Below, one piece after another: positions 30,983-48,705 of a stretch of 48,705 nucleotides of DNA. Under the pieces are notes generated by a model. That model did not search any database. It was not told the origin of the DNA and saw nothing but the letters and a program-made list of their open reading frames with translations. Positions within the stretch are counted from its first letter, which is position 1, and the number at the start of each line of letters is the position of its first letter. Both the position numbers and the translations under genes were made by a program. The stretch is from Myxococcales bacterium (GTDB taxonomy: Bacteria; Myxococcota_A; Polyangia; Nannocystales; Nannocystaceae), in NCBI GenBank assembly GCA_014240065.1, contig JAAZXR010000016.1:28229-76933 (forward strand), given 5' to 3'.

Positions 30983-31211
30983 GGTTCGGCCTCTCGACTA
31001 TAGACGCATGTCGACGCCATCTCTATTCCATCTACCTCGGGGTCGCGCCCAGCGCCTGCCTGCGACGATGTTCGTCAGCGCCGAAATCACCTGTTGACCA
31101 ACATTCGATGCCCAACGCGAGGTGCCCCCGCGTGCCAACCTGCCAGCATCCCCTCCGCGGGCCCTCTCGGGCGGCGGAAGACGTGGTACCGTGTCCGGGG
31201 AATCTGTGGGG

Positions 31212-34058
31212 ATGGTGGACCAAGAAGACCGCGACGGTGAGAACGGCTCCTCGCCCGCGGGAGCGGAGCGCGCTAGGTCCGAGACCACGCTCGTGCTCGA
31301 GCGGACCCTCGAAGACAGCGGGCTCACATCGGGGCCGGTCGAGCCGCTCAAAGAAGCCCAGCAAATCGGCCGATTCATCATTCAACAGTTGATCGGCGCC
31401 GGCGCGACCGGGCACGTCTACAAAGCATGGGATCCCGAGCTCCACCGCAGCGTCGCGCTGAAGCTGCTCGTCTCCCAATTGTTCTCCCCGCTGGAGGGGA
31501 CGAGCGAGCACACGACCCGCCTCCGTCTGGAGGCCCAGGCCCTCGCGCGCCTCAATCACCCGCACGTGGTGACGGTGCACGAGGTGGGCACGCACTCCGG
31601 CGCGGTATTTGTCGCCATGGAGTTCGTGGAGGGCGCCACCCTCCGCGAGTGGCTCCGTCAAACGAGACGCTCTGTGTCTGAGATCCTGTCCGTCATGCTC
31701 GACGCAGCGTCGGGCCTCGCCGCGGCGCACGACGCGGGCATCATCCACCGTGATTTTAAGCCCGACAACGTGATGGTCCCCGCCTCCGGAGGACTCAAGA
31801 TCGTTGATTTTGGCTTGGCCAGACCGCACAGCGGCGAGGACGACCGAGTGGAGCGCGGCGCGCAAGTCATCACGCCTCCGGTCCGGGCGCGGGAGGCGCT
31901 GCGGCACGCGAAGGCGCGCCCGCAGGTCACGACGACAGGCGCGCTCGTAGGTACGCCGGCCTATATGGCGCCCGATGTTCTCGACGGCGCTGCCGCTTCG
32001 CCCGCCTCCGATCAGTACGCGTTCGCCGTCACGCTCTACGAGGCGCTGTTTGAGGAGCGCCCCTACCGAGGCATGAATATTGAGGTCCTGACCACTCCGG
32101 AAGGCTTCGCGAAGCTCAAGCCCGATGGTGCTCCCAGCGGCGCCTTGCGGTTCGTTCCCGCGCTAGGGCGCATGCTCTCCCCGGATCCGCGGCTTCGATT
32201 TCCGTCCGTCCGCGCGGCCCGAGACGCGCTCGTTCGCGAGGAGCGGCGCGCGGAGCGACGCCGGCGAGTCATCGGATGGAGCGCCGCAGCGATCATCGGC
32301 GGCGCCTTGATAGGAGGGCTCATCACCCTCCCTGATCGGGGTTCGACATTGTGCGAAGCGCGGATGAGCGACCTCGAGCGCAGCTGGAGCGGACACCGTG
32401 ACGCGCTCGTCGCGAAGGGCCGCGATCTGACGGGATCGGAGCGAGCCGTATGGGATCGCACGGTGACCGCGCTGTCAGAGTACGCCGATCGACTCCGAGT
32501 CACGCGAGTCACTCTCTGTGATGACGACCGCGACCCCTCGTACTCCGAGGTTGAGCTCGTCCTGCGTCAGTCCTGCCTCGACCGCCGCACCGCCACCTTG
32601 AACGACCTCGCCGACGCGTTCACGACCCTCTCCCGCGAGCGACTCTTGCAGGCCGCCACCGCTTCGCTCGAAGTCCCCGCGCCCGAGAGCTGTCTTGGAC
32701 GCGCCGGCATGGTCGAGGAGGCGAACGATGCGCCGTCGCGACAGCTTCGAGCGGAGGTTGAGCGTGGGCGCTCCATGATCCTCACTCGAGACACTGAGGG
32801 CGCGATCGAACACCTGGAGTCCATCCGGGACCGCGTCGAAGGGGCCCAATATCCCCACCTTCACGCTGAATATCTCACGACGCTCGGGCACGCCTACTAC
32901 GCGAGAGGTGTGCGAGACCGGATCGTCGAATCGAACTCCCGCGCGTTCGAAGCGGCGCGTCAGCTGGAGCGTTCGGATCTGGCGTTCGAGGCCTCCGTTC
33001 GACTCGCGGCGTATATGGGCGAGCGGCGTGAATCGGCGCGCGCCCGCGACTGGATGCTCCACGCGTGGGTATCTGCGCGGCAAGAGGGCTCGGACGACGT
33101 TAAGGTTCGAGCCCTCCTCGCCGAGGGGATCCTCGACGTACGAGATGGCACACCAGACGCCGCCCATGAGAAATTGGACGAGGCCATCGCGATCCAGCGC
33201 GCGTCCACCGGAGGGGAGGCCGACCTCACAGTCGCCGAGGCGATCCGCCAAAAGGGCTACGCCTACAAGGAGCAGGCCCTGCTCTCCGAAGCCACCGAAG
33301 CCCACGAGCGAGCCCTGGAGATCTTTGAGCGCGTCCTCGGTCCAGAGCACCCGCTCCTCGCCCGGAGCCTCGAACAAATCGGTTCGCTGCTCGCGGAACG
33401 AGGGCTCCCCGAGCAAGGCGTGGTCTTCATCGAACGCTCCGTGCCGCTGCTGACCACCATGTACGGGCGCGACAGCACTCGGCTCATCCCCGCGCTCGGT
33501 AACCTCGGGCTGACCTACAACGAGCTCCACCGGCCAGAGGACGCTCGGGCGCGCTTTGAAGAGATCTTGCGGATCCTCGATCATAAATACGGCGACACCC
33601 CGTCGCCCCAGGAGCGCGCGAGCTACTTGCGGGTCTACATCGCGTTGGCGCAGACGGAGATTGAGCTGGAGCGACTCGAGGGCGCGCGGCAGACAATAGA
33701 AAAGGCCCTCGAGATCGAGCGCGACATCGGCGACGTGCAGATGGCCCCGTCGATCCACGGGGACATCTGGACCACCAAGGCCATGGTGGAGGAGGCCGAC
33801 GGAAATCGTCCGCAGGCCGTCTTAGATCTGCAGCGCGCCGTCGACACCCACGTGAAGCGACTCGGCGAGGACCACCTCTACGCGGCGGTCACGCGGGCCA
33901 GACTCGCGAACCTCCGCATCGAGGCTGGGGCTGACCCCAAGACTCCGGAGATTCGGCGGCTCCTGCAGCGCGCCGCCGTCGTGGTCGACAACGACGACTT
34001 CCCCGCCTCCATGCGAGACCCGCTCCGAGCGAATCTGCAGGCCGCCGGAATCCCGTAG
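31212..34058 (+). CDS. Transmembrane Ser/Thr protein kinase with C-terminal TPR domain
   Basis: With the start at ATG 31212 the product has 948 residues. The Hanks-type kinase domain (about 53-340) has the glycine loop IGAGATGHVYKAW, Lys-84 in VALKLL, HRDFKPDN (179-186), DFG (199-201) and GTPAYMAPD in place of the usual APE. The segment between DFG and GTPAYMAP is about 45 residues, longer than normal and rich in Arg. One transmembrane helix follows at about 354-373, then a long helical region with TPR-like units typical of myxobacterial kinases. So the kinase is cytoplasmic with an outward TPR sensor. The frame is open to 31122; ATG 31212 removes a Pro-rich run with no kinase features. Substrates are unknown. 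Confidence 0.9.
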   Translation: MVDQEDRDGENGSSPAGAERARSETTLVLERTLEDSGLTSGPVEPLKEAQQIGRFIIQQLIGAGATGHVYKAWDPELHRSVALKLLVSQLFSPLEGTSEHTTRLRLEAQALARLNHPHVVTVHEVGTHSGAVFVAMEFVEGATLREWLRQTRRSVSEILSVMLDAASGLAAAHDAGIIHRDFKPDNVMVPASGGLKIVDFGLARPHSGEDDRVERGAQVITPPVRAREALRHAKARPQVTTTGALVGTPAYMAPDVLDGAAASPASDQYAFAVTLYEALFEERPYRGMNIEVLTTPEGFAKLKPDGAPSGALRFVPALGRMLSPDPRLRFPSVRAARDALVREERRAERRRRVIGWSAAAIIGGALIGGLITLPDRGSTLCEARMSDLERSWSGHRDALVAKGRDLTGSERAVWDRTVTALSEYADRLRVTRVTLCDDDRDPSYSEVELVLRQSCLDRRTATLNDLADAFTTLSRERLLQAATASLEVPAPESCLGRAGMVEEANDAPSRQLRAEVERGRSMILTRDTEGAIEHLESIRDRVEGAQYPHLHAEYLTTLGHAYYARGVRDRIVESNSRAFEAARQLERSDLAFEASVRLAAYMGERRESARARDWMLHAWVSARQEGSDDVKVRALLAEGILDVRDGTPDAAHEKLDEAIAIQRASTGGEADLTVAEAIRQKGYAYKEQALLSEATEAHERALEIFERVLGPEHPLLARSLEQIGSLLAERGLPEQGVVFIERSVPLLTTMYGRDSTRLIPALGNLGLTYNELHRPEDARARFEEILRILDHKYGDTPSPQERASYLRVYIALAQTEIELERLEGARQTIEKALEIERDIGDVQMAPSIHGDIWTTKAMVEEADGNRPQAVLDLQRAVDTHVKRLGEDHLYAAVTRARLANLRIEAGADPKTPEIRRLLQRAAVVVDNDDFPASMRDPLRANLQAAGIP

Positions 34059-39986: not shown

Positions 39987-41315
39987 CTAGCCTCGGATCG
40001 TCACGGGCGTCGGACGCCCACGGCCGATCCCGTAGTACTCAAATCCCTCCGCCTCGCAGCGCTCGGGTGAGAGGACGTTGCGCCCGTCGAACAACAGACG
40101 CCCGCGCATGCGCGAGGTGACCTCGTCCCAGTCGAGCTGCCTGAACTGGCTCCACTCCGTCACGATGACCAAGGCGTCCGCGCCATCGAGCGCGTCGTAT
40201 TGATATTCCACGAGCGCCACCGTGTCCTTGAGTTCACGGCGCGCGTTGGCCATGGCCTCCGGATCGAAGGCGCGCACTGTCGCGCCCGCGGCCAAGAACT
40301 TCTCGATCAAGGTGAGCGCCGGCGCCTCGCGGATGTCGTCGGTGTTGGGCTTAAAGGCGATGCCCCAGATCGCGATGGTCTTCCCGGTGAGGTCGTCTCC
40401 CAAGCGGTCCGTGAGCTTGTGAAACATCACCTCTTTTTGCTTGCGATTCACCGCGTTGGTCGCGGCGAGCAACTGAAGATCCATGCCTAGTTTCTTGGCG
40501 GTGTACGCGAGCCCGTCCACGTCCTTCGGGAAACATGAGCCGCCGTACCCCACCCCGGGGAACAAAAACGAGGGGCCGATGCGGGTGTCGCATCCCATCC
40601 CCAGCCTCACTTGGGCGATGTCGGCGCCGGCGCGGTCTGCGAAATTTGCCAGCTCGTTCATGAAGCTAATTCGCGTCGCTAAGAGCGCGTTCGAGCCGTA
40701 TTTCGTGAGTTCTGCGCTCGTATTGTCCATGACCAAAATCCGGTCACGTTTGCGCATGAACGGGCTGTACAGCTCCCGGATGGAGGCCGCGGCCTCCTCG
40801 CTGCGCGCCCCGATCACCACCCGGTCAGGCTTTTGAAAATCTTGAACGGCGGCGCCCTCCTTGAGGAACTCGGGGTTGGAGATCACCTCGAAGGGCACGG
40901 AGGTCAGCGCCTCCATCCTCGCCCGCACCTCACTCGCCGTCCCCACCGGCACGGTCGACTTCATCACGACCGTCTTCGGGGTCTGCATCGTCTGCGCGAT
41001 GTCCTCCACGGCCTTCAACACGTAGCTCATGTCCGGTCCACCATCGGCGGCCGGTGGTGTCCCCACGCAGACAAAGATCGCCTCCGCGTCGGCGATCGCG
41101 GCCGCCGCGTCGAGCGTGAATGTCAAGCGACCAGCGCGAACCCCCCGGCGAACCAGCTCCTCCAAGCCAGGCTCGTAAATCGGGATCTGCCCGTCGTTGA
41201 GTCGCTGGACCTTGTCTTCATCGATGTCCACGCACGCGACGTGGTTGCCGCTGTCGGCGAAGCACGTGCCGGTCACGAGGCCGACATATCCGGTTCCGAT
41301 CACTGCAATCTTCAT
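39987..41315 (-). CDS. ugd: UDP-glucose 6-dehydrogenase
   Basis: The 442-residue protein begins with the NAD-binding MKIAVIGTGYVGLVTGTCFA, continues with PIYEPGLEELV and the active-site GYGGSCFPKDVDGL containing the catalytic Cys, and has WGIAFKPNTDDIREAPAL in the C-terminal UDP-binding domain. It oxidises UDP-glucose twice to UDP-glucuronate in the cytoplasm; the close relatives acting on UDP-ManNAc are less likely but not excluded by motif alone. Start ATG at 41315 has AGAGGAG five bases upstream. It is divergent from the nonulosonic acid operon across about 540 bases. Confidence 0.93.
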   Translation of the reverse strand: MKIAVIGTGYVGLVTGTCFADSGNHVACVDIDEDKVQRLNDGQIPIYEPGLEELVRRGVRAGRLTFTLDAAAAIADAEAIFVCVGTPPAADGGPDMSYVLKAVEDIAQTMQTPKTVVMKSTVPVGTASEVRARMEALTSVPFEVISNPEFLKEGAAVQDFQKPDRVVIGARSEEAAASIRELYSPFMRKRDRILVMDNTSAELTKYGSNALLATRISFMNELANFADRAGADIAQVRLGMGCDTRIGPSFLFPGVGYGGSCFPKDVDGLAYTAKKLGMDLQLLAATNAVNRKQKEVMFHKLTDRLGDDLTGKTIAIWGIAFKPNTDDIREAPALTLIEKFLAAGATVRAFDPEAMANARRELKDTVALVEYQYDALDGADALVIVTEWSQFRQLDWDEVTSRMRGRLLFDGRNVLSPERCEAEGFEYYGIGRGRPTPVTIRG

Positions 41316-41854: not shown

Positions 41855-43024
41855 ATGTCTTCTGACTTCACCCAGGTGGTTTCCGACCTCCGCTCCCTGT
41901 TCCCGAGCGCGAGCGCGGGGGTCATTCCCTTGCACGCGCCCGCCTTTCGCGGCAACGAGCGCGAGTACCTCATGGCGTGCGTGGACAGCACCTTCGTGTC
42001 GAGCGTCGGCGCGTTCGTGGACCGAGCGGAGCAGCTCCTCGCGGCCCAGACGGGCGCCGGGTACGCCGTGGCGTGTGTCAACGGCACCAGCGCCCTGCAC
42101 CTCTCGTTGGTCGCCGCCGGGGTCACGCGCGGCGACCTCGTCTTGACCCAGGCGTTCTCGTTTGTGGCCACCGCCAACGCCATCGCATACACCGGCGCGA
42201 CCCCAGCGTTCTTGGACATCGACCGAGTGACGCTCGGGCTCTCGCCAACCGCCGTCGAGGAATTCATGACAACGGAGTGCGAGCGCGACGCGAACGGCGA
42301 CTGGATCCACCGCGCGTCCAAGCGGCGCGTCTCCGCCTGCGTGCCCATGCACAGCTTCGGGTTTGTCGCGGAGATCGATAGACTCGCCGAGGTCTGTCGT
42401 GAGTTCGACCTGGCGCTCATCGAAGACGCCGCCGAGTCGCTCGGTTCCACCTACAAGGACGTCCACAGCGGCACGGTGGGCGTGATGGGGGCGCTGAGCT
42501 TCAACGGCAACAAGATCGTCACGGCGGGTGGTGGCGGGATGATCCTGACGAGTGATGAGGCCCTGGCCAAGCGGCTCAAGCATCTGAGCACCCAAGCCAA
42601 AATGCCCCACAAGTGGGAATATCGGCACGACAGCGTCGGCTACAACTACCGGATGCCCAACCTCAACGCCGCGCTCCTCTGCGCCCAGATGGAGCAGCTG
42701 CCCGGCTACCTCGCGAGGAAGCGAGCGCTCGCGAGCCAGTACGGCGCGCTCCTCAAAGACACCCCCCTCTCCTTCCTCGACGCGCCGCCCGGACAATCGC
42801 CGAATTTTTGGTTGTGCTGCGCGCTGCTCGAAAATCGAGAAATCCGAGACTCATTCCTGGCCGCCGCGAACGCCGCGAAGCTCATTTGTCGCCCCGCGTG
42901 GGAGCTGTTGAGCGACCTGCCAATCTTCGACCACGCGATCCAGCATGGAGCGCTCCCGATCTCCCGCGACATTCAATCTCGCATCGTCAACCTCCCGTCG
43001 AGCCCGCACCACTTTGATGACTGA
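41855..43024 (+). CDS. LegC-type DegT/DnrJ/EryC1 aminotransferase
   Basis: The 389-residue protein matches LegC-family PLP aminotransferases along its length: IPLHAPAFRGNEREYL, DSTFVSSVGAFVDR, CVNGTSALHLSL, VPMHSFGF, IEDAAESLGS, and ALSFNGNKIVTAGGGGM with the PLP-lysine in GNK. LegC adds the 4-amino group to a 4-keto nucleotide sugar in legionaminic acid synthesis. ATG 41855 is chosen because the earlier frame has no family sequence. The stop lies eight bases inside the next gene's start, so the operon is tightly packed. It is the first gene of the six-gene nonulosonic acid operon. Confidence 0.92.
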   Translation: MSSDFTQVVSDLRSLFPSASAGVIPLHAPAFRGNEREYLMACVDSTFVSSVGAFVDRAEQLLAAQTGAGYAVACVNGTSALHLSLVAAGVTRGDLVLTQAFSFVATANAIAYTGATPAFLDIDRVTLGLSPTAVEEFMTTECERDANGDWIHRASKRRVSACVPMHSFGFVAEIDRLAEVCREFDLALIEDAAESLGSTYKDVHSGTVGVMGALSFNGNKIVTAGGGGMILTSDEALAKRLKHLSTQAKMPHKWEYRHDSVGYNYRMPNLNAALLCAQMEQLPGYLARKRALASQYGALLKDTPLSFLDAPPGQSPNFWLCCALLENREIRDSFLAAANAAKLICRPAWELLSDLPIFDHAIQHGALPISRDIQSRIVNLPSSPHHFDD

Positions 43025-43688
43025 GCCCACCACCCTGTCCTCTGCTGAGGACCTGTCCGAATCCATCGTGCTCGTGGGCGGTGGCGGACACGCCTGCGCC
43101 CTCCTCGACGTCCTCCGGAGGCTCGACCGCTGGGAGGTTATCGGGCTCCTCGACCCGGCGCTCGAGCCCGCCACTGACCGATACGGTGTCCCCGTCCTCG
43201 GAGGGGACGACGCCCTCCGACCACTCGTCGAGCGCGGATGCAGCGTCGCAATTGGCGTCGGCCAGACGACGACAACAAGCCCCCGGCACGCGCTGTTTCA
43301 ACGCCTGCGCGAGATGGGGGCGAGCCTCCCCGCCATCGTCTCCACGCGCGCCTACGTCAGCCCTCGAGCCCGCCTGGGCCCCGCGGCCCAGGTCCTTCAC
43401 GGCGCCATCGTCAACGCCGACGCCTCGATCGGCGCCAACACCATCATCAATTCCAGGGCGCTCGTGGAACACGAGGCGGTCATCGGCGCCGACTGCCATA
43501 TCGCCACGGGCGCCATCGTCAATGGCCGATCGTCCGTGGGCCCCCGAAGCTTCATCGGGAGCGGCGCCGTCGTGCTGCACTCCCTCCAGCTCTCGAGCGA
43601 CGTCGCCGTCGGCGCTGGCGCTGTCGTCACCGCTTCCCTCCCTGCTCCGGGCACCTACGTAGGTGTGCCGGCGAAAGCCCTCCCATGA
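43017..43688 (+). CDS. NeuD/PglD-like sugar O- or N-acyltransferase
   Basis: The 223-residue protein has a PglD-type N-terminal Rossmann-like part (ESIVLVGGGGHACALLDVL) and a left-handed beta-helix of hexapeptide repeats (GAIVNADASIGANTIINSRALVEHEAVIG), with the catalytic His probably in LVEHE. Neighbouring families (NeuD, PglD, LegH candidates) acetylate amino or hydroxyl groups of nucleotide sugars or sialic acids. In this operon it is the likely acetylation step; whether it acts on the 4-amino group or on the finished sugar is unclear. Start ATG 43017 overlaps the previous gene and its stop overlaps the next ATG (ATGA). Confidence 0.9.
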   Translation: MTEPTTLSSAEDLSESIVLVGGGGHACALLDVLRRLDRWEVIGLLDPALEPATDRYGVPVLGGDDALRPLVERGCSVAIGVGQTTTTSPRHALFQRLREMGASLPAIVSTRAYVSPRARLGPAAQVLHGAIVNADASIGANTIINSRALVEHEAVIGADCHIATGAIVNGRSSVGPRSFIGSGAVVLHSLQLSSDVAVGAGAVVTASLPAPGTYVGVPAKALP

Positions 43689-44758
43689 CCGCGCAGACCC
43701 CTCACCCCAAAACCCCCGCGCGGCCGCACACCTTCGTGATCGCCGAGGCGGGCGTGAACCACAACGGCGATCTCTCGCTCGCCGAAAAGCTCGTGGACGC
43801 GGCGGCCGACGCTGGGGCCGACGCCGTGAAATTCCAGACCTTCAAGGCCGCGAAGCTCGTGACCGCCGCGGCGAAGAAGGCCGAATACCAGGTCACCAAC
43901 ACCAAGGTCGCCGGGACCCAGTACGAGATGTTGAAGGCGCTCGAACTGAGCGCGGAACATCATCATCACCTGCGGCGATATGCGACCGAGCGAGGCATCA
44001 TGTTCTTGAGCTCGCCGTTCGATCTCGACAGCATGGCGCTGTTGCGGTCGTTGGACGTGAAGATCGGCAAGATTCCGTCGGGCGAGCTGACCAACCTCCG
44101 CTTCCTCCAGGCGATGACACGCCACTTCCCGGAGCTGATCATGAGCACAGGCATGGCCTCGCTGACGGAGGTCCTCGCCGCACTTCGGGTCCTCACCGAC
44201 GCCGGCGCGAGCCGTGACAGCATCACCGTTTTGCACTGCAACACGGAGTATCCGACCCCCATGAGAGACGTGAACCTGCGGGCGATGCAGACCCTCCGGG
44301 ACGCCACCGGATGTCGCGTGGGGTACAGCGACCACTCGCTCGGCATCGAGGTCCCCATCGCCGCGACGGCGCTCGGGGCCGTCGTCGTCGAGAAACACAT
44401 CACCCTCGACCGGGAGCTCCCTGGCCCCGACCACCGCTGCTCTCTCGAACCCGACGAGCTCGTGCGTATGGTGCGCGGCATCCGGAATATCGAAGAGGCG
44501 ATGGGGAGCCGCCTCAAGGAGCCCAGCCCCTCCGAGGCCAAAAATATTGAAATCGCGCGACGGAGTCTTCACGCCGCGACCGCGCTCCCTGCGGGCCACC
44601 TCCTCCGCGAGGAAGACCTCATCGCGCGCCGACCCGCGACCGGGCTCTCTCCCATGGCCCTCGATCAGATCATCGGACGACCACTGAAGCGAGCACTCGA
44701 GGAACACCAACCCCTCACCGACGAGCACGTCAGCGTCGACACGAGCGAGGCCACATGA
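43685..44758 (+). CDS. NeuB/LegI-type nonulosonic acid synthase
   Basis: The 357-residue protein has the NeuB barrel: FVIAEAGVNHNGDLSLA, AVKFQTFK, FLSSPFDLDS, IGKIPSGELTNLRFL, LHCNTEYPTP, GYSDHSLGIEVPIAA and VVEKHITLDRELPGPDH, with the NHNG and metal-binding His positions intact. The C-terminal part (AGHLLREEDLIARRP) is an antifreeze-like SAF domain. The enzyme condenses a 6-carbon aminosugar with phosphoenolpyruvate to give a nine-carbon 2-keto-3-deoxy sugar. Whether it is N-acetylneuraminate or legionaminate cannot be decided from motifs; the LegC neighbour favours legionaminate. It overlaps both neighbours by four bases. Confidence 0.93.
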   Translation: MTAQTPHPKTPARPHTFVIAEAGVNHNGDLSLAEKLVDAAADAGADAVKFQTFKAAKLVTAAAKKAEYQVTNTKVAGTQYEMLKALELSAEHHHHLRRYATERGIMFLSSPFDLDSMALLRSLDVKIGKIPSGELTNLRFLQAMTRHFPELIMSTGMASLTEVLAALRVLTDAGASRDSITVLHCNTEYPTPMRDVNLRAMQTLRDATGCRVGYSDHSLGIEVPIAATALGAVVVEKHITLDRELPGPDHRCSLEPDELVRMVRGIRNIEEAMGSRLKEPSPSEAKNIEIARRSLHAATALPAGHLLREEDLIARRPATGLSPMALDQIIGRPLKRALEEHQPLTDEHVSVDTSEAT

Positions 44759-45897
44759 CCCGACGCATCGGTGTCCTCACGAGCTCGCGCGCCGACTTTG
44801 GGATCTACACTCCCCTGCTGCGCGCGCTGCAAGAGACGCCCGCGTGGGACACAGAGCTCATCGTGTTTGGCACGCACCTCTCCCGAGAGCACGGCGCTAC
44901 CGTAGCGCACATTGAACGTGAGGGGTTTGAGGCGGCACACAAACTCCCCGAGTGTTTCGCCACCGATGACTCGCCCCAAGGCGTGAGCGAGGCCATGGCG
45001 AGGACACAAAGCGCCTTCGCTCAATTCTACGCCGAGAACAGCTTTGACCTGTTCTTCTGTCTCGGCGATCGGTACGAGATGTTCGCGGCCGTCGCCGCCG
45101 CGAAACCATTCGCGTTGAACTTCGCGCACCTGTATGGCGGCGAACAAACCCTCGGCGCCATCGACGACGCCTTCCGGCACGGGATCACGCACCTTTGCGA
45201 TTGGCACTTCGCCGGCAGCGCCCGCTACGCCGAGCGCGTCAGAGAGCTCACCAGGGCACCGGAGAGGGTCTTCGATGTGGGCTACCTCAGCCTCGACACG
45301 CTCTCGACGATGACGTTCATGACGCCAGAGGAGCTCCTCCCGCGTTGTGGCCTGGACCTCTCGCGACCCACGCTCCTGTGTACGTTTCACCCGGAGACCG
45401 TCGCGCACCAACGGAACCAGGCGTACGCAGACGAGCTCCACTACGCTTTCTCGGCCCTCTCCAACTGGCAGATCCTCATCACCATGCCCAACGCGGACAC
45501 GCGAAGCCGACCCCTCCGGTCGATGTGCTCTCGCCTCGCAGCCGCCCACCCGAACATCTCTGCGGTCGAGAGCCTCGGTACGCGCGGCTATCTCTCCGCC
45601 ATGAAACACTGCGCCGCGATGGTCGGGAACACCTCGAGCGGCTACGTGGAAGCGTCCTACTTCCCCAAACGCGTCATCGATCTTGGCGACCGTCAACGCG
45701 GTCGCATTCGCACATCGAATATCACCCATATCCCGGTCGAGCGCGCCCAAATCATCGACGCGGTCGGGCGAGTCGCCCCCATCGACAGCCCCAGCGAATG
45801 CCACGTCTATGGGGATGGGAACGCGGCCGCGAAAATCTGCGACATCCTTCATCACCGAGTATTGACCCCTCCAACGGAGACGACGACATGGTCTTGA
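44755..45897 (+). CDS. NeuC/LegG-type hydrolysing nucleotide-sugar 2-epimerase
   Basis: The 380-residue protein resembles NeuC/LegG: RRIGVLTSSRADFGIYTPLL, FGTHLSREHG, FCLGDRYEMFA, HLYGGEQTLGAIDDAFRHGITHLCDWHFAGS, CTFHPETV and GNTSSGYVEA. These enzymes release the nucleotide while inverting C2, giving the mannose-configured free sugar for NeuB/LegI. The ATG overlaps the previous stop by four bases, and the stop overlaps the next start by ten bases. The NDP base (UDP or GDP) cannot be told from the sequence, though the next gene makes a GDP route plausible. Confidence 0.92.
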   Translation: MTRRIGVLTSSRADFGIYTPLLRALQETPAWDTELIVFGTHLSREHGATVAHIEREGFEAAHKLPECFATDDSPQGVSEAMARTQSAFAQFYAENSFDLFFCLGDRYEMFAAVAAAKPFALNFAHLYGGEQTLGAIDDAFRHGITHLCDWHFAGSARYAERVRELTRAPERVFDVGYLSLDTLSTMTFMTPEELLPRCGLDLSRPTLLCTFHPETVAHQRNQAYADELHYAFSALSNWQILITMPNADTRSRPLRSMCSRLAAAHPNISAVESLGTRGYLSAMKHCAAMVGNTSSGYVEASYFPKRVIDLGDRQRGRIRTSNITHIPVERAQIIDAVGRVAPIDSPSECHVYGDGNAAAKICDILHHRVLTPPTETTTWS

Positions 45898-46946
45898 GCG
45901 ACGAAATACAGCGAAACATAGTGTTCGAAACGGACTCCATCGCTACCGCCCTCCGGAAAATCGGAGCGCCAAATCACTGGAGGACCTTGTTCGTCCTCGA
46001 CGCCCAACAACGCGTCGTCGGGAGCATCTCCGACGGCGATATCCGGCGCGGACTGCTTCGGGGACTCAGCCCCGAGAATGACTGCGGCGCCTTCGCCCAC
46101 CGCGACTTCACCGCGCTCCGACGCCCCAAGGTATCCATGCAGGAAATTAATCAACTCCGACAACGTCAACTGTATATTTTCCCGCTGCTCGACGCCGAAG
46201 ATCATATCGAGCGCATCATCAATCTTCATCAACTCAAGAGCCTCCTCCCCGTCACCGCCGTCGTGATGGCTGGCGGCAAGGGTCGGCGGCTGCGGCCGCT
46301 CACGAAGGAGACGCCGAAGCCGATGCTGCCCGTGGGCGACGCGCCGATCCTCGAAATCAACATCCGTCGGCTCGTGTCCTACGGCGTTGAGGACGTCTAC
46401 ATCTGCGTCAACTACCTCAAAGACCAAATCGTTGACCACTTCGGGGATGGGTCGCGGTTCGGGTGTCGCATCCAATACATCACCGAAGACCGTCCGCTCG
46501 GGACGATGGGCGCCCTCTCCAAGCTCCCCCAGGTGCTTGAGCATCCAGACATTCTGTTGTTCAACGCAGACCTCCTCAGCGACATCGATCTGGAGGCGTT
46601 CTTTATGGAGCACGACGAATCGAAGCGCGCGCTCACAGTGGCGAGCATCCCCCACAAGGTCAATATTCCCTACGCGATCTTGGAGCAGTCAGAGGGGCGT
46701 ATCGAGAACTTCAACGAGAAGCCGACCTACACCTACTGGGCGAACGCGGGCTTCTATCTGTTCAAGTCATCCTTGCTCGAGCTCGTCCCCCCGCAGACAT
46801 TTTATGACGCGACCGACTTCATGGACGCGGTCCTTGAGAAAGACTATGACGTCGGGTCTTTCCCCATCCATGGCTATTGGAATGACGTCGGGTCCCTCAA
46901 CGACTACCGAAAAGCACAAGAGGACATCCTCACGCTACGGCTCTAG
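45888..46946 (+). CDS. CBS-domain sugar-1-phosphate nucleotidyltransferase (PtmE-like)
   Basis: The 352-residue protein has a CBS pair at about 1-120 (SIATALRKIG, TLFVLDAQQRVVGSISDGDIRRGLL) and a nucleotidyltransferase from about 124 (AVVMAGGKGRRLRPLTKETPKPMLPV). FNADLLSDID is the metal-binding site region. This layout matches PtmE/GlmE-type enzymes that make GDP-glucosamine in the Campylobacter legionaminic acid route. Here it probably supplies the first activated sugar of the pathway; the base is inferred. ATG 45888 has GGAG seven bases upstream. The next gene begins one base after the stop. Confidence 0.9.
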   Translation: MVLSDEIQRNIVFETDSIATALRKIGAPNHWRTLFVLDAQQRVVGSISDGDIRRGLLRGLSPENDCGAFAHRDFTALRRPKVSMQEINQLRQRQLYIFPLLDAEDHIERIINLHQLKSLLPVTAVVMAGGKGRRLRPLTKETPKPMLPVGDAPILEINIRRLVSYGVEDVYICVNYLKDQIVDHFGDGSRFGCRIQYITEDRPLGTMGALSKLPQVLEHPDILLFNADLLSDIDLEAFFMEHDESKRALTVASIPHKVNIPYAILEQSEGRIENFNEKPTYTYWANAGFYLFKSSLLELVPPQTFYDATDFMDAVLEKDYDVGSFPIHGYWNDVGSLNDYRKAQEDILTLRL

Positions 46947-46947
46947 T

Positions 46948-47661
46948 ATGTGCGCTCAACCACTCGCCATTATCACGGCACGGCGGGGCTCCAAGGGGAT
47001 CCCCGGTAAGAACTGGCGCCACCTCGGCGGCGAACCGCTCGTGTCCCATAGCATCCGCCAAGCGCTCTCTGTCGCGAGTCCGGAGCATATCTGCGTGACA
47101 ACTGACTCGCCCCAAGTCCTGGAGATCGCGGCGCAGCACGGCGTCAGCCCGGGGTTCGTGCGGCCTCCAAATTTGAGCGACGACAAGGCGGATTCTCGCG
47201 CCGTCATGCTGCACGCCCTGGAGCAGATGCAAACCCTCCGCGGGAACAGCTACGACCGGGTGTTGCTGCTGCAGCCGACGTCGCCGTTCCGCTCACGCGA
47301 AGACATGCTCATGGCCCTCGAGATGTACGACGACAGCGTCGACATGGTGGTCTCGGCGGTGGAGACGCACGCGAACCCCTACTTCGCGGTCTTCCTCTCA
47401 GATTCCATGGGTATGTTGCGGAAAGCGATCGCATCGGACATGACCCGGAGGCAGGACTGTCCGAAGGCCTTCATGCTGAACGGCGCGGTCTACGTCTTCA
47501 ACGTCCAGTCGCTCCGCGAGGGCCCCGTAAGTCGGTTTGAGCGCATTCGATGTTATCAGATGCCGGCCAGCAGCAACGTTGACCTCGACACGGAGCTCGA
47601 CTGGAAGTGGGCGGAATTCCTCCTCGCCGAGGGCGTCGTGAGCCTCCCTTCGCGAGGATGA
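46948..47661 (+). CDS. Acylneuraminate/legionaminate cytidylyltransferase
   Basis: The 237-residue protein has PLAIITARRGSKGIPGKN at the N-terminus, the CTP-binding signature of CMP-nonulosonate synthetases, then HICVTTDSPQVLEIAA, VLLLQPTSPFRSREDM, NGAVYVFNVQSL and SNVDLDTELDWKWAE. It activates the nine-carbon acid as CMP-sugar for a transferase; PtmB/LegF and NeuA are the close families. It starts at ATG 46948, one base after the previous stop. It is the last gene of the operon. No transferase using the product is present in the window. Confidence 0.93.
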   Translation: MCAQPLAIITARRGSKGIPGKNWRHLGGEPLVSHSIRQALSVASPEHICVTTDSPQVLEIAAQHGVSPGFVRPPNLSDDKADSRAVMLHALEQMQTLRGNSYDRVLLLQPTSPFRSREDMLMALEMYDDSVDMVVSAVETHANPYFAVFLSDSMGMLRKAIASDMTRRQDCPKAFMLNGAVYVFNVQSLREGPVSRFERIRCYQMPASSNVDLDTELDWKWAEFLLAEGVVSLPSRG

Positions 47662-47675
47662 TCGCTCGCCCCGCG

Positions 47676-48705
47676 CTAGGGACCCTCGCAGCGATAGACG
47701 CGAAACCCGAGGTCAAGCGATGGAGGATCATCTCCCCCGGCGTAGACGTCCTCGAGCGCGCCGCAAGCGGCCGCCAGCCGAGCGCAGGTGAGGTCGGCGA
47801 TATTTCGCTGCTCGGCAGCGGCGCCGTCCTCGTTTTGAATCAACACGAAGCTCCGCGTGGCGCCTTGCTCCGCGTTCAACTGTAGCAGCGCCTCTCCTGT
47901 GGTCCCCGACCCCGCGAACAGGTCTGCGATACGCGCGTCGGGCGGACTCAACGCGCACAGGCGCCGCATCAACGCGAGCGGCTTCGGGGTGTCAAACTCT
48001 CCGACCCCCCGCGCCTTCAGCTCTCGCGCCGCCGCGTCCGTCGACCCGATGTCTCTCGACAACCACACGGACGTCAGTTTCTTCGTGCGCCCCGCGTGGT
48101 TGTAGTCTCTTTGAAACACATCCCACCGGCGCCCGGTCTTCCCTCGAACCTCTCGACCGAAGAGGCGTTCGCGCTCCTGCTCCACCTTGCCGCGGCTCCA
48201 TCGCCAGACCGCAGGCGCCCCGGTACCGAACACGGGCGTGACCTTGATGCACCCCGCACCCCCGACGACATCGACCGCCCCATTTTCGCGGTCGATAAAG
48301 AGTGGATAGGCCAGGTTGGGGCGAGTCTCGGGGTTGAACTTCTTGTTGGTGTTCCGCAGGGGCAACAGACGGTAGCGGCCGCCGCCGTCTTCCAATGGGA
48401 AGTCGTCGGGGTTCACCGCCTCTGGAAGCCCCGACCGAATCACGCAGCGGTCAAGGTCTCGGGCGTAGATCAACACGTACTCGTGGGCGGAGGCGAAGTG
48501 TGGCGCGAGCTGCCTGCCCTTCGCGTTCATGGAGACGACAATGGTCGCGATACGATTGGACGCTCCAAAGATCTCGTCCAGCATCGTTCGCACGGTGTGA
48601 ACCTCGTTGTCGTCGATACTCACACATAAAAAACCGCTCTGTTTCAAGAGCTCGCGGGTCACGAGATGAACGATGACGAGCTCAACAGGGACGATGAGAC
48701 AGCGC
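47676..48705 (-). CDS. Type III-like DNA methyltransferase (5' part beyond window)
   Basis: The visible frame reads from the window edge, with no stop, to TGA or its equivalent at 47676. It contains GFLCVSIDDNEVHTVRTMLDEIFG, TNKKFNPETRPNLAYP, WRWSRGKVEQE, KKLTSVW, FDTPKPLALMRRL and the SAM-binding DLFAGSGTTGEALLQLN. These are the central and C-terminal blocks of type III/beta-class N6-adenine or N4-cytosine methyltransferases. The catalytic DPPY motif of beta-class enzymes precedes motif I and would lie outside the window. A GTG at 48662 is not taken as the start because it would remove the catalytic part. The nearby upstream codons (48663-48705) do not resemble the expected family sequence well. 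A type III restriction partner is not visible. Confidence 0.82.
   Translation of the reverse strand, partial: RCLIVPVELVIVHLVTRELLKQSGFLCVSIDDNEVHTVRTMLDEIFGASNRIATIVVSMNAKGRQLAPHFASAHEYVLIYARDLDRCVIRSGLPEAVNPDDFPLEDGGGRYRLLPLRNTNKKFNPETRPNLAYPLFIDRENGAVDVVGGAGCIKVTPVFGTGAPAVWRWSRGKVEQERERLFGREVRGKTGRRWDVFQRDYNHAGRTKKLTSVWLSRDIGSTDAAARELKARGVGEFDTPKPLALMRRLCALSPPDARIADLFAGSGTTGEALLQLNAEQGATRSFVLIQNEDGAAAEQRNIADLTCARLAAACGALEDVYAGGDDPPSLDLGFRVYRCEGP

Follow-up and report, generated by a model that had tools for sequence, protein, structure and literature searches.

A six-gene operon for a legionaminic-acid-like nonulosonic acid in a Myxococcales bacterium of the family Nannocystaceae lacks the dehydratase with which its pathway usually begins, and a short-chain dehydrogenase/reductase (SDR) encoded on another contig of the same genome (C164) is probably the entry enzyme in its place. 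The operon lies in a stretch of 48,705 nucleotides from contig JAAZXR010000016.1, hereafter the window, to which positions given without a contig refer. Our overall reading, to which we assign a probability of roughly 0.5, is that this SDR opens the pathway and oxidizes C4 of a sugar linked to guanosine diphosphate (GDP), which would lead to a 9-hydroxy product instead of legionaminate. It builds on the identities and order of the genes, the absence of any known dehydratase from the assembly, the partnership of the SDR gene with legC and its exchange for legB, the residues in which these enzymes differ, and the adjacency of a Maf gene to flagellin genes; the reactions of the enzymes, the use of GDP as the nucleotide and the identity of the product are what we infer from these observations.

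An intact operon without a recognizable first enzyme

The six genes (positions 41855–47661; Table 1) are all intact, share the plus strand and either overlap their neighbors by 4–10 bases or are separated from them by a single base. The original prediction, made from the letters of the window, had assigned them to one pathway: Family models and coordinates agree on this, and both the identity of the operon and its class, that of the legionaminate-like 5,7-diamino-nonulosonates, are firm. The PtmE-like protein had been read as a sign of the GDP route, with which the domain architecture found here, including a weak CBS match, is compatible; this protein is 52–56% identical to PtmE from LegB-bearing operons and, judged by its sequence, is probably a guanylyltransferase. 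The best solved relative of NeuC is the hydrolyzing 2-epimerase of GDP- or UDP-diacetylbacillosamine (5xvs/5zlr, 206 bits; UDP, uridine diphosphate), and that of NeuA is the synthetase 1eyr (103 bits), which produces N-acetylneuraminic acid (Neu5Ac) linked to cytidine monophosphate (CMP). Among the curated families, NeuA scores highest with the PseF-like one yet stays below its cut-off, and it reaches no other curated family above cut-off.

The 4,6-dehydratase LegB is the usual first enzyme ahead of the aminotransferase LegC. As had been noted in the original prediction, no LegB-type dehydratase is encoded within the window, and the genome-wide search for LegB/PglF/FlmA-type dehydratases then proposed as a check likewise returned no dehydratase-grade match. 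This search was conducted family by family over the metagenome-assembled genome (4.7 Mb, 235 contigs, 97.67% complete): The top score was 83 bits against a cut-off of 475 for LegB (TIGR04180), 46 bits for PF02719 (PglF/FlaA1/PseB/WbpM), of which full-length members elsewhere reach 336–410 bits, and 98 bits for PF16363 (RmlB/GMD), which is not dehydratase grade. As a control, TIGR04180 scored 489–498 bits in seven genomes that have LegB and 453 bits in an eighth. A sister genome of the same genus, only 54% complete, has an identical ugd/legC junction and a LegC that is 88% identical; LegB was not found in it with TIGR04180, and PF02719 had no match at 1e-40 in either genome. Other candidates were rejected. 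A legB just past the window was discarded because the window's last base is also that of the contig, which ends 1044 bases past neuA with a gene on the opposite strand; the remaining SDRs of the genome are unfit as dehydratases by their sequences and weak scores; and LegC-like matches in other genomes of the order belong to different DegT families and fall below the cut-off.

Table 1. Coordinates of the operon, the candidate entry enzyme and other features mentioned in the text (contig or locus given for features outside the window).
Feature	Position	Strand	Assignment and scores
legC	41855–43024	+	Pyridoxal-phosphate-dependent 4-aminotransferase, DegT family; TIGR04181 486 bits (cut-off 420)
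neuD/legH	43017–43688	+	NeuD/PglD-type N-acetyltransferase; TIGR03570 191 bits (cut-off 161); 8-base overlap with legC
neuB/legI	43685–44758	+	Nonulosonate synthase, NeuB and SAF domains (PF03102, PF08666); TIGR03569 451 bits (cut-off 400); ATGA overlap with neuD
neuC/legG	44755–45897	+	Hydrolyzing NDP-sugar (nucleoside diphosphate sugar) 2-epimerase; TIGR03568 344 bits (cut-off 236)
ptmE-like	45888–46946 (ATG start)	+	CBS domain (PF00571 20.6 bits, weak) and sugar-1-phosphate nucleotidyltransferase (PF00483 148 bits)
neuA/legF-like	46948–47661	+	CMP-nonulosonate synthetase; PF02348 74 bits; PseF model 127 bits (below cut-off 206)
Candidate entry SDR	C164:20603–21586		Extended nucleotide-sugar SDR, 328 residues from internal ATG; motif STCSNYG
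Genes adjoining the SDR	C164:10204–19611		Glycosyltransferases, methyltransferase, Wzx-like flippase, two sulfatase-family proteins
Formyltransferase and deacetylase genes	L059:13949–15504		Formyltransferase and PIG-L deacetylase; equivalent in L065
Flagellar cluster	C110:17000–31000		Maf and flagellin genes
Second PF01973 protein	C158:24581–25090		471-residue open reading frame
ugd	39987–41315	−	UDP-glucose dehydrogenase
DNA methylase	47676–48704	−	N6/N4 DNA methylase (PF01555), truncated by contig end
Kinase	31122–34058		Ser/Thr protein kinase fused to TPR repeats

The candidate entry enzyme

A single protein, the SDR of contig C164, produced the top match to TIGR04180, PF02719 and PF16363 alike. 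It is 98% identical between the window genome and its sister and at most 40% identical to anything else in the order, so that its close homologues there are confined to the two operon-bearing genomes. Its gene is syntenic in both and under strong purifying selection (ratio of nonsynonymous to synonymous substitution rates, dN/dS, 0.035). Viral contigs searched for homologues of the SDR gave no match. Adjoining it on C164 are glycosyltransferase, methyltransferase, flippase and sulfatase-family genes (Table 1); the glycosyltransferase/Wzx part is absent from the short contig (5.7 kb) that bears the SDR in the sister genome.

The three kinds of first-step SDR differ in their motifs: All LegB proteins scanned carry STSE[VI]YG...YSA[ST]K, the PglF-like proteins STDK...MGASK, and all SDRs of the C164 type STCSNYG. 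In every characterized 4,6-dehydratase, the catalytic Ser/Thr is followed by two positions of which at least one is Asp, Glu or Lys (DE, DK or SE); the 5,6-dehydratase TunA has CE at these positions, and GalE has none of these residues (PMC8987622, Table 1). The C164-type SDRs have Cys-Ser at the acid/base positions, that is, no canonical dehydratase pair. The top match of the C164 protein in the PDB is Cj1427 (6vo6/6vo8, 165 bits), which Foldseek also ranked best when run on a 64%-identical homologue (L107; 34–36% identity). Cj1427 oxidizes GDP-heptose at C4 with regeneration of NAD by alpha-ketoglutarate and, alongside a C4,6-dehydratase, opens the route to heptoses that are 6-hydroxy instead of 6-deoxy (PMC10680097). 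Because the SDR lacks the dehydratase acid/base residues and has Cj1427 as its nearest solved relative, we predict oxidation at C4 with retention of the 6-hydroxyl; provided that the SDR is the entry enzyme, this is the likely reaction, in preference to dehydration. The original prediction had left a choice between a distant dehydratase and a different product: A dehydratase of known type is not present in the assembled genome, and the lack of dehydratase residues in the candidate favors a product that differs from legionaminate.

Exchange of the first enzyme beside legC

A scan of GTDB genomes with the window LegC yielded 80 loci, nearly all from Bacteroidota. The first-step SDR that accompanies legC is LegB in 44 of them (in three of these, elsewhere in the genome), PglF-like in 23 and of the C164 type in seven; six loci are unassigned or truncated. 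Five of the seven C164-type proteins are 59–64% identical to the C164 protein and the other two 39–44%. The 59–64% relatives are from Bacteroidota, where the gene stands immediately upstream of legC at four loci (L089, L102, L107, L121) and one gene apart from it at a fifth (L101). TIGR04180 detected LegB in none of the seven genomes with an SDR–legC pair, and of the LegB genomes checked only one has a homologue of the SDR, a partial match of 45%. At L089 the operon is complete in the order SDR-legC-neuD-neuB-neuC-ptmE-neuA; the genome has no PF02719 match at 1e-40, and an RmlB-like gene is present near an RmlA-like gene.

The operons of Pontibacter diazotrophicus (L065) and Cesiribacter sp. 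SM1 (L059) match gene for gene (68–88%) within similar flanks, and their sole difference is the first gene, which encodes an STCSNYG SDR in the former and LegB in the latter. Closely related LegC, NeuC and NeuB proteins thus appear to serve both kinds of first enzyme. Between neuC and ptmE, both operons contain formyltransferase and PIG-L deacetylase genes (Table 1), and an exchange of the N-acyl group on the nonulosonate from acetyl to formyl is suggested for the Pontibacter-group operons. In a quick LegC tree, several forks of which are open, the SDR partner occurs in at least four separate places. The window LegC groups with L048–L053 (support 99) and the window NeuB is closest to that of the SDR-bearing L089 (support 92); the differing affinities of LegC/NeuC and NeuB point to a mosaic origin of the operon.

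More distant homologues of the SDR (37–42% identity) were found on plasmids of archaea and bacteria; in the four examined, a DegT-type aminotransferase is adjacent in three and nearby in the fourth: The genes from Haloterrigena (L183) and Klebsiella (L184) lie beside DegT aminotransferase genes, that from Cupriavidus (L185) has a nucleotidyltransferase gene on one side and the gene of a LegC-like aminotransferase on the other, and in Pseudomonas (L186) the DegT gene is three genes off. This suggests a widespread dehydrogenase–transaminase module. The cluster on the P. aeruginosa plasmid also includes genes for a glycoside hydrolase of family GH65, a major facilitator superfamily protein and a class-III aminotransferase. 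More tentatively, and at somewhat less than even odds, the C4-dehydrogenase may constitute a recurrent third entry enzyme for LegC-type pathways, which is interchangeable in position with LegB or PglF-like dehydratases and steers the route to CMP-7-acetamido-7-deoxy-Neu5Ac.

Proposed pathway and product

We propose a GDP-linked 5,7-diamino-nonulosonate pathway in which an SDR that is not a dehydratase, encoded in trans, takes over from LegB. PtmE would generate GDP-GlcNAc (GlcNAc, N-acetylglucosamine), which the SDR would oxidize at C4 only, with the 6-hydroxyl kept and the NADH recycled with alpha-ketoglutarate in the manner of Cj1427. In the next step, LegC would aminate the 4-ketone with glutamate and thereby regenerate alpha-ketoglutarate; consumption by the dehydrogenase of the alpha-ketoglutarate made by the transaminase would be a natural cofactor economy. 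Acetylation of the amine by NeuD, hydrolysis and epimerization by NeuC to 2,4-diacetamido-2,4-dideoxymannose and condensation with phosphoenolpyruvate by NeuB would produce 7-acetamido-7-deoxy-Neu5Ac (Neu5Ac7NAc), which NeuA would activate to its CMP derivative, the 9-hydroxy analogue of CMP-legionaminic acid. Finally, the Maf protein encoded at the flagellin locus would place the sugar on flagellin.

The GDP route to CMP-legionaminic acid in Campylobacter jejuni (PtmE, LegB, LegC, LegH, LegG, LegI, LegF) resembles this system in that homologues of all enzymes but LegB, including a LegF-like synthetase, are encoded in one operon, and in the position of Maf beside the flagellins. It differs in its first enzyme: Here LegB is missing from window, contig and assembled genome, and the STCSNYG SDR in trans is the sole candidate found. 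The Sps pathway to legionaminic acid in Bacillus subtilis (PMC7439481) also begins with an enzyme other than LegB; this enzyme, SpsM, is however a PglF-like UDP-GlcNAc 4,6-dehydratase of a UDP route, whereas the present genome has no real PF02719 member. Cj1427, the best solved relative by sequence and Foldseek, is like the SDR an extended SDR without dehydratase acid/base residues, and it stands in for a 4,6-dehydratase in a GDP-sugar route, as we propose for the SDR. Its substrate, however, is GDP-heptose, and its product goes to epimerases and reductases instead of an aminotransferase. The Bacteroidota operons have the same gene set, close protein relatives and the STCSNYG variant as a neighbor of legC, whereas in the genus of the window the SDR is encoded apart from the operon.

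Neu5Ac7NAc has been described as a stable analogue, obtained by chemical synthesis, of 7-O-acetyl sialic acid (PMC10795189, PMC11356810). Reportedly, the synthetic compound withstands two bacterial sialidases and is recognized only poorly by human IgG, whereas legionaminate is recognized (PMC11356810). In the open-licence literature we came across no description of it from nature, which is not proof that none exists, and our literature search for nonulosonates in connection with a C4-dehydrogenase, with myxobacteria or with Myxococcota flagellin yielded no paper. If our reading is true, a single gene swap sets whether a 9-deoxy legionaminate or a 9-hydroxy relative, chemically closer to host sialic acid, is made, and a natural source of Neu5Ac7NAc would bear on the origin of microbial sialic acid mimics. 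LegC and NeuB would then be insufficient for the annotation "legionaminic acid". The prediction can be tested directly in named isolates, since Pontibacter diazotrophicus carries the SDR and Cesiribacter sp. SM1 carries LegB.

Alternative explanations

Several observations weigh against C4 oxidation as the first step and against a 9-hydroxy product. The SDR gene lies outside the operon, near glycosyltransferase/Wzx and sulfatase genes, and could serve another glycan; no NeuB is encoded in the stretches fetched for L102 and L107. The identity to Cj1427 is only about 35%, and a structural comparison by VIA-align gave Z scores of about 28–30 with epimerases and dehydratases tied: The fold comparison was consequently rejected as a discriminator between dehydrogenase and dehydratase, and Cj1427 is favored only by the Foldseek ranking, in which sequence counts as well. 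UDP-sulfoquinovose synthase likewise lacks the canonical acid/base residues (PMC8987622), so that their absence is not proof against dehydration. The assembly is 97.7% complete, and a contig with legB may have been lost. The window LegC and NeuC group with relatives of the L049/L053 type, in which legB lies downstream of neuA; these relatives presumably use 6-deoxy substrates, and this weighs most heavily against a 9-hydroxy product. The L065/L059 pair, in which near relatives of LegC, NeuC and NeuB work with either first enzyme, counts in the other direction.

Alternatively, the SDR takes the place of LegB as an unconventional 4,6-dehydratase, with Cys and Ser instead of the acid/base pair and ordinary legionaminic acid as the product. 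Such an enzyme would account for an SDR that fills LegB's slot in otherwise LegB-type operons and for the grouping of the window LegC and NeuC with LegB-linked enzymes, and Cys is the catalytic acid of TunA (PMC8987622, Table 1). TunA, however, keeps a Glu as base, whereas the STCS motif offers neither a canonical acid nor a canonical base; moreover, the nearest characterized relative is a C4-dehydrogenase and the wider SDR family is found with aminotransferases that belong to no known 6-deoxy pathway. We regard this explanation as unlikely.

We consider it quite improbable that LegB is hidden in an assembly gap or on an unbinned contig, that the product is legionaminic acid and that the C164 SDR belongs to another glycan. 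The fragmentation of the assembly, the end of the contig so soon after neuA and the position of legB downstream of neuA in the closest LegC relatives are compatible with such a loss, but the next gene after neuA runs in the opposite direction, one given gene has little chance of lying in the missing ~2%, and the sister genome, though only 54% complete, shares the ugd/legC junction and the SDR and likewise has no LegB.

That the entry enzyme was lost and the operon is decaying, or makes Neu5Ac via NeuC, NeuB and NeuA alone, is very improbable: These three could in principle act on UDP-GlcNAc and NeuB scores above the NeuB_NnaB cut-off, but LegC, NeuD and PtmE are all intact, purifying selection acts on LegC (dN/dS 0.10), and NeuC resembles diacetylbacillosamine epimerases and is far from the NeuC of Escherichia coli K1. 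The original prediction had named a placement of NeuB and NeuC among neuraminate enzymes as evidence against a legionaminate-like route. In our trees, K1 NeuC is separated by a split with support 100 from the window NeuC, which groups with LegB-linked relatives; K1 NeuB is on a long branch and its placement is uncertain, with one organism as the only neuraminate reference.

A candidate transferase beside the flagellins

The original prediction had found no transferase for a CMP-sugar. This is true for the window, and a candidate exists elsewhere in the genome: Of two PF01973 proteins, one is a Maf-like protein of 628 residues (128 bits) on contig C110, whose gene is preceded by flgK- and flgI-like genes and directly followed by four complete flagellin genes on the same strand. 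A fifth flagellin gene of this cluster is cut by the end of the fetched stretch. The lineage is probably flagellated, and the sister genome encodes a Maf that is 85% identical, again with flagellin. Maf4 of C. jejuni is a putative legionaminic acid transferase (PMC9298399), and on the basis of protein family and gene position we think it likely that the C110 Maf transfers the sugar of the operon onto flagellin. Seven other genomes of the family (L175, L176, L178–L182) have Maf–flagellin pairs at 34–42% identity and no LegC above cut-off. A search for GT42/CST-I transferases gave no match; its control was equally silent, so the result says nothing. The second PF01973 protein (Table 1) is encoded outside the flagellar genes and is also found in the sister genome.

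Neighboring genes in the window

Scans for RNA families, promoters and terminators gave no signal above chance. Upstream, ugd is oriented divergently from the operon; downstream, neuA is followed on the opposite strand by the truncated DNA methylase gene, possibly a piece of a restriction-modification system that runs onto a missing contig. The window also encodes a Ser/Thr protein kinase fused to TPR repeats (Table 1).

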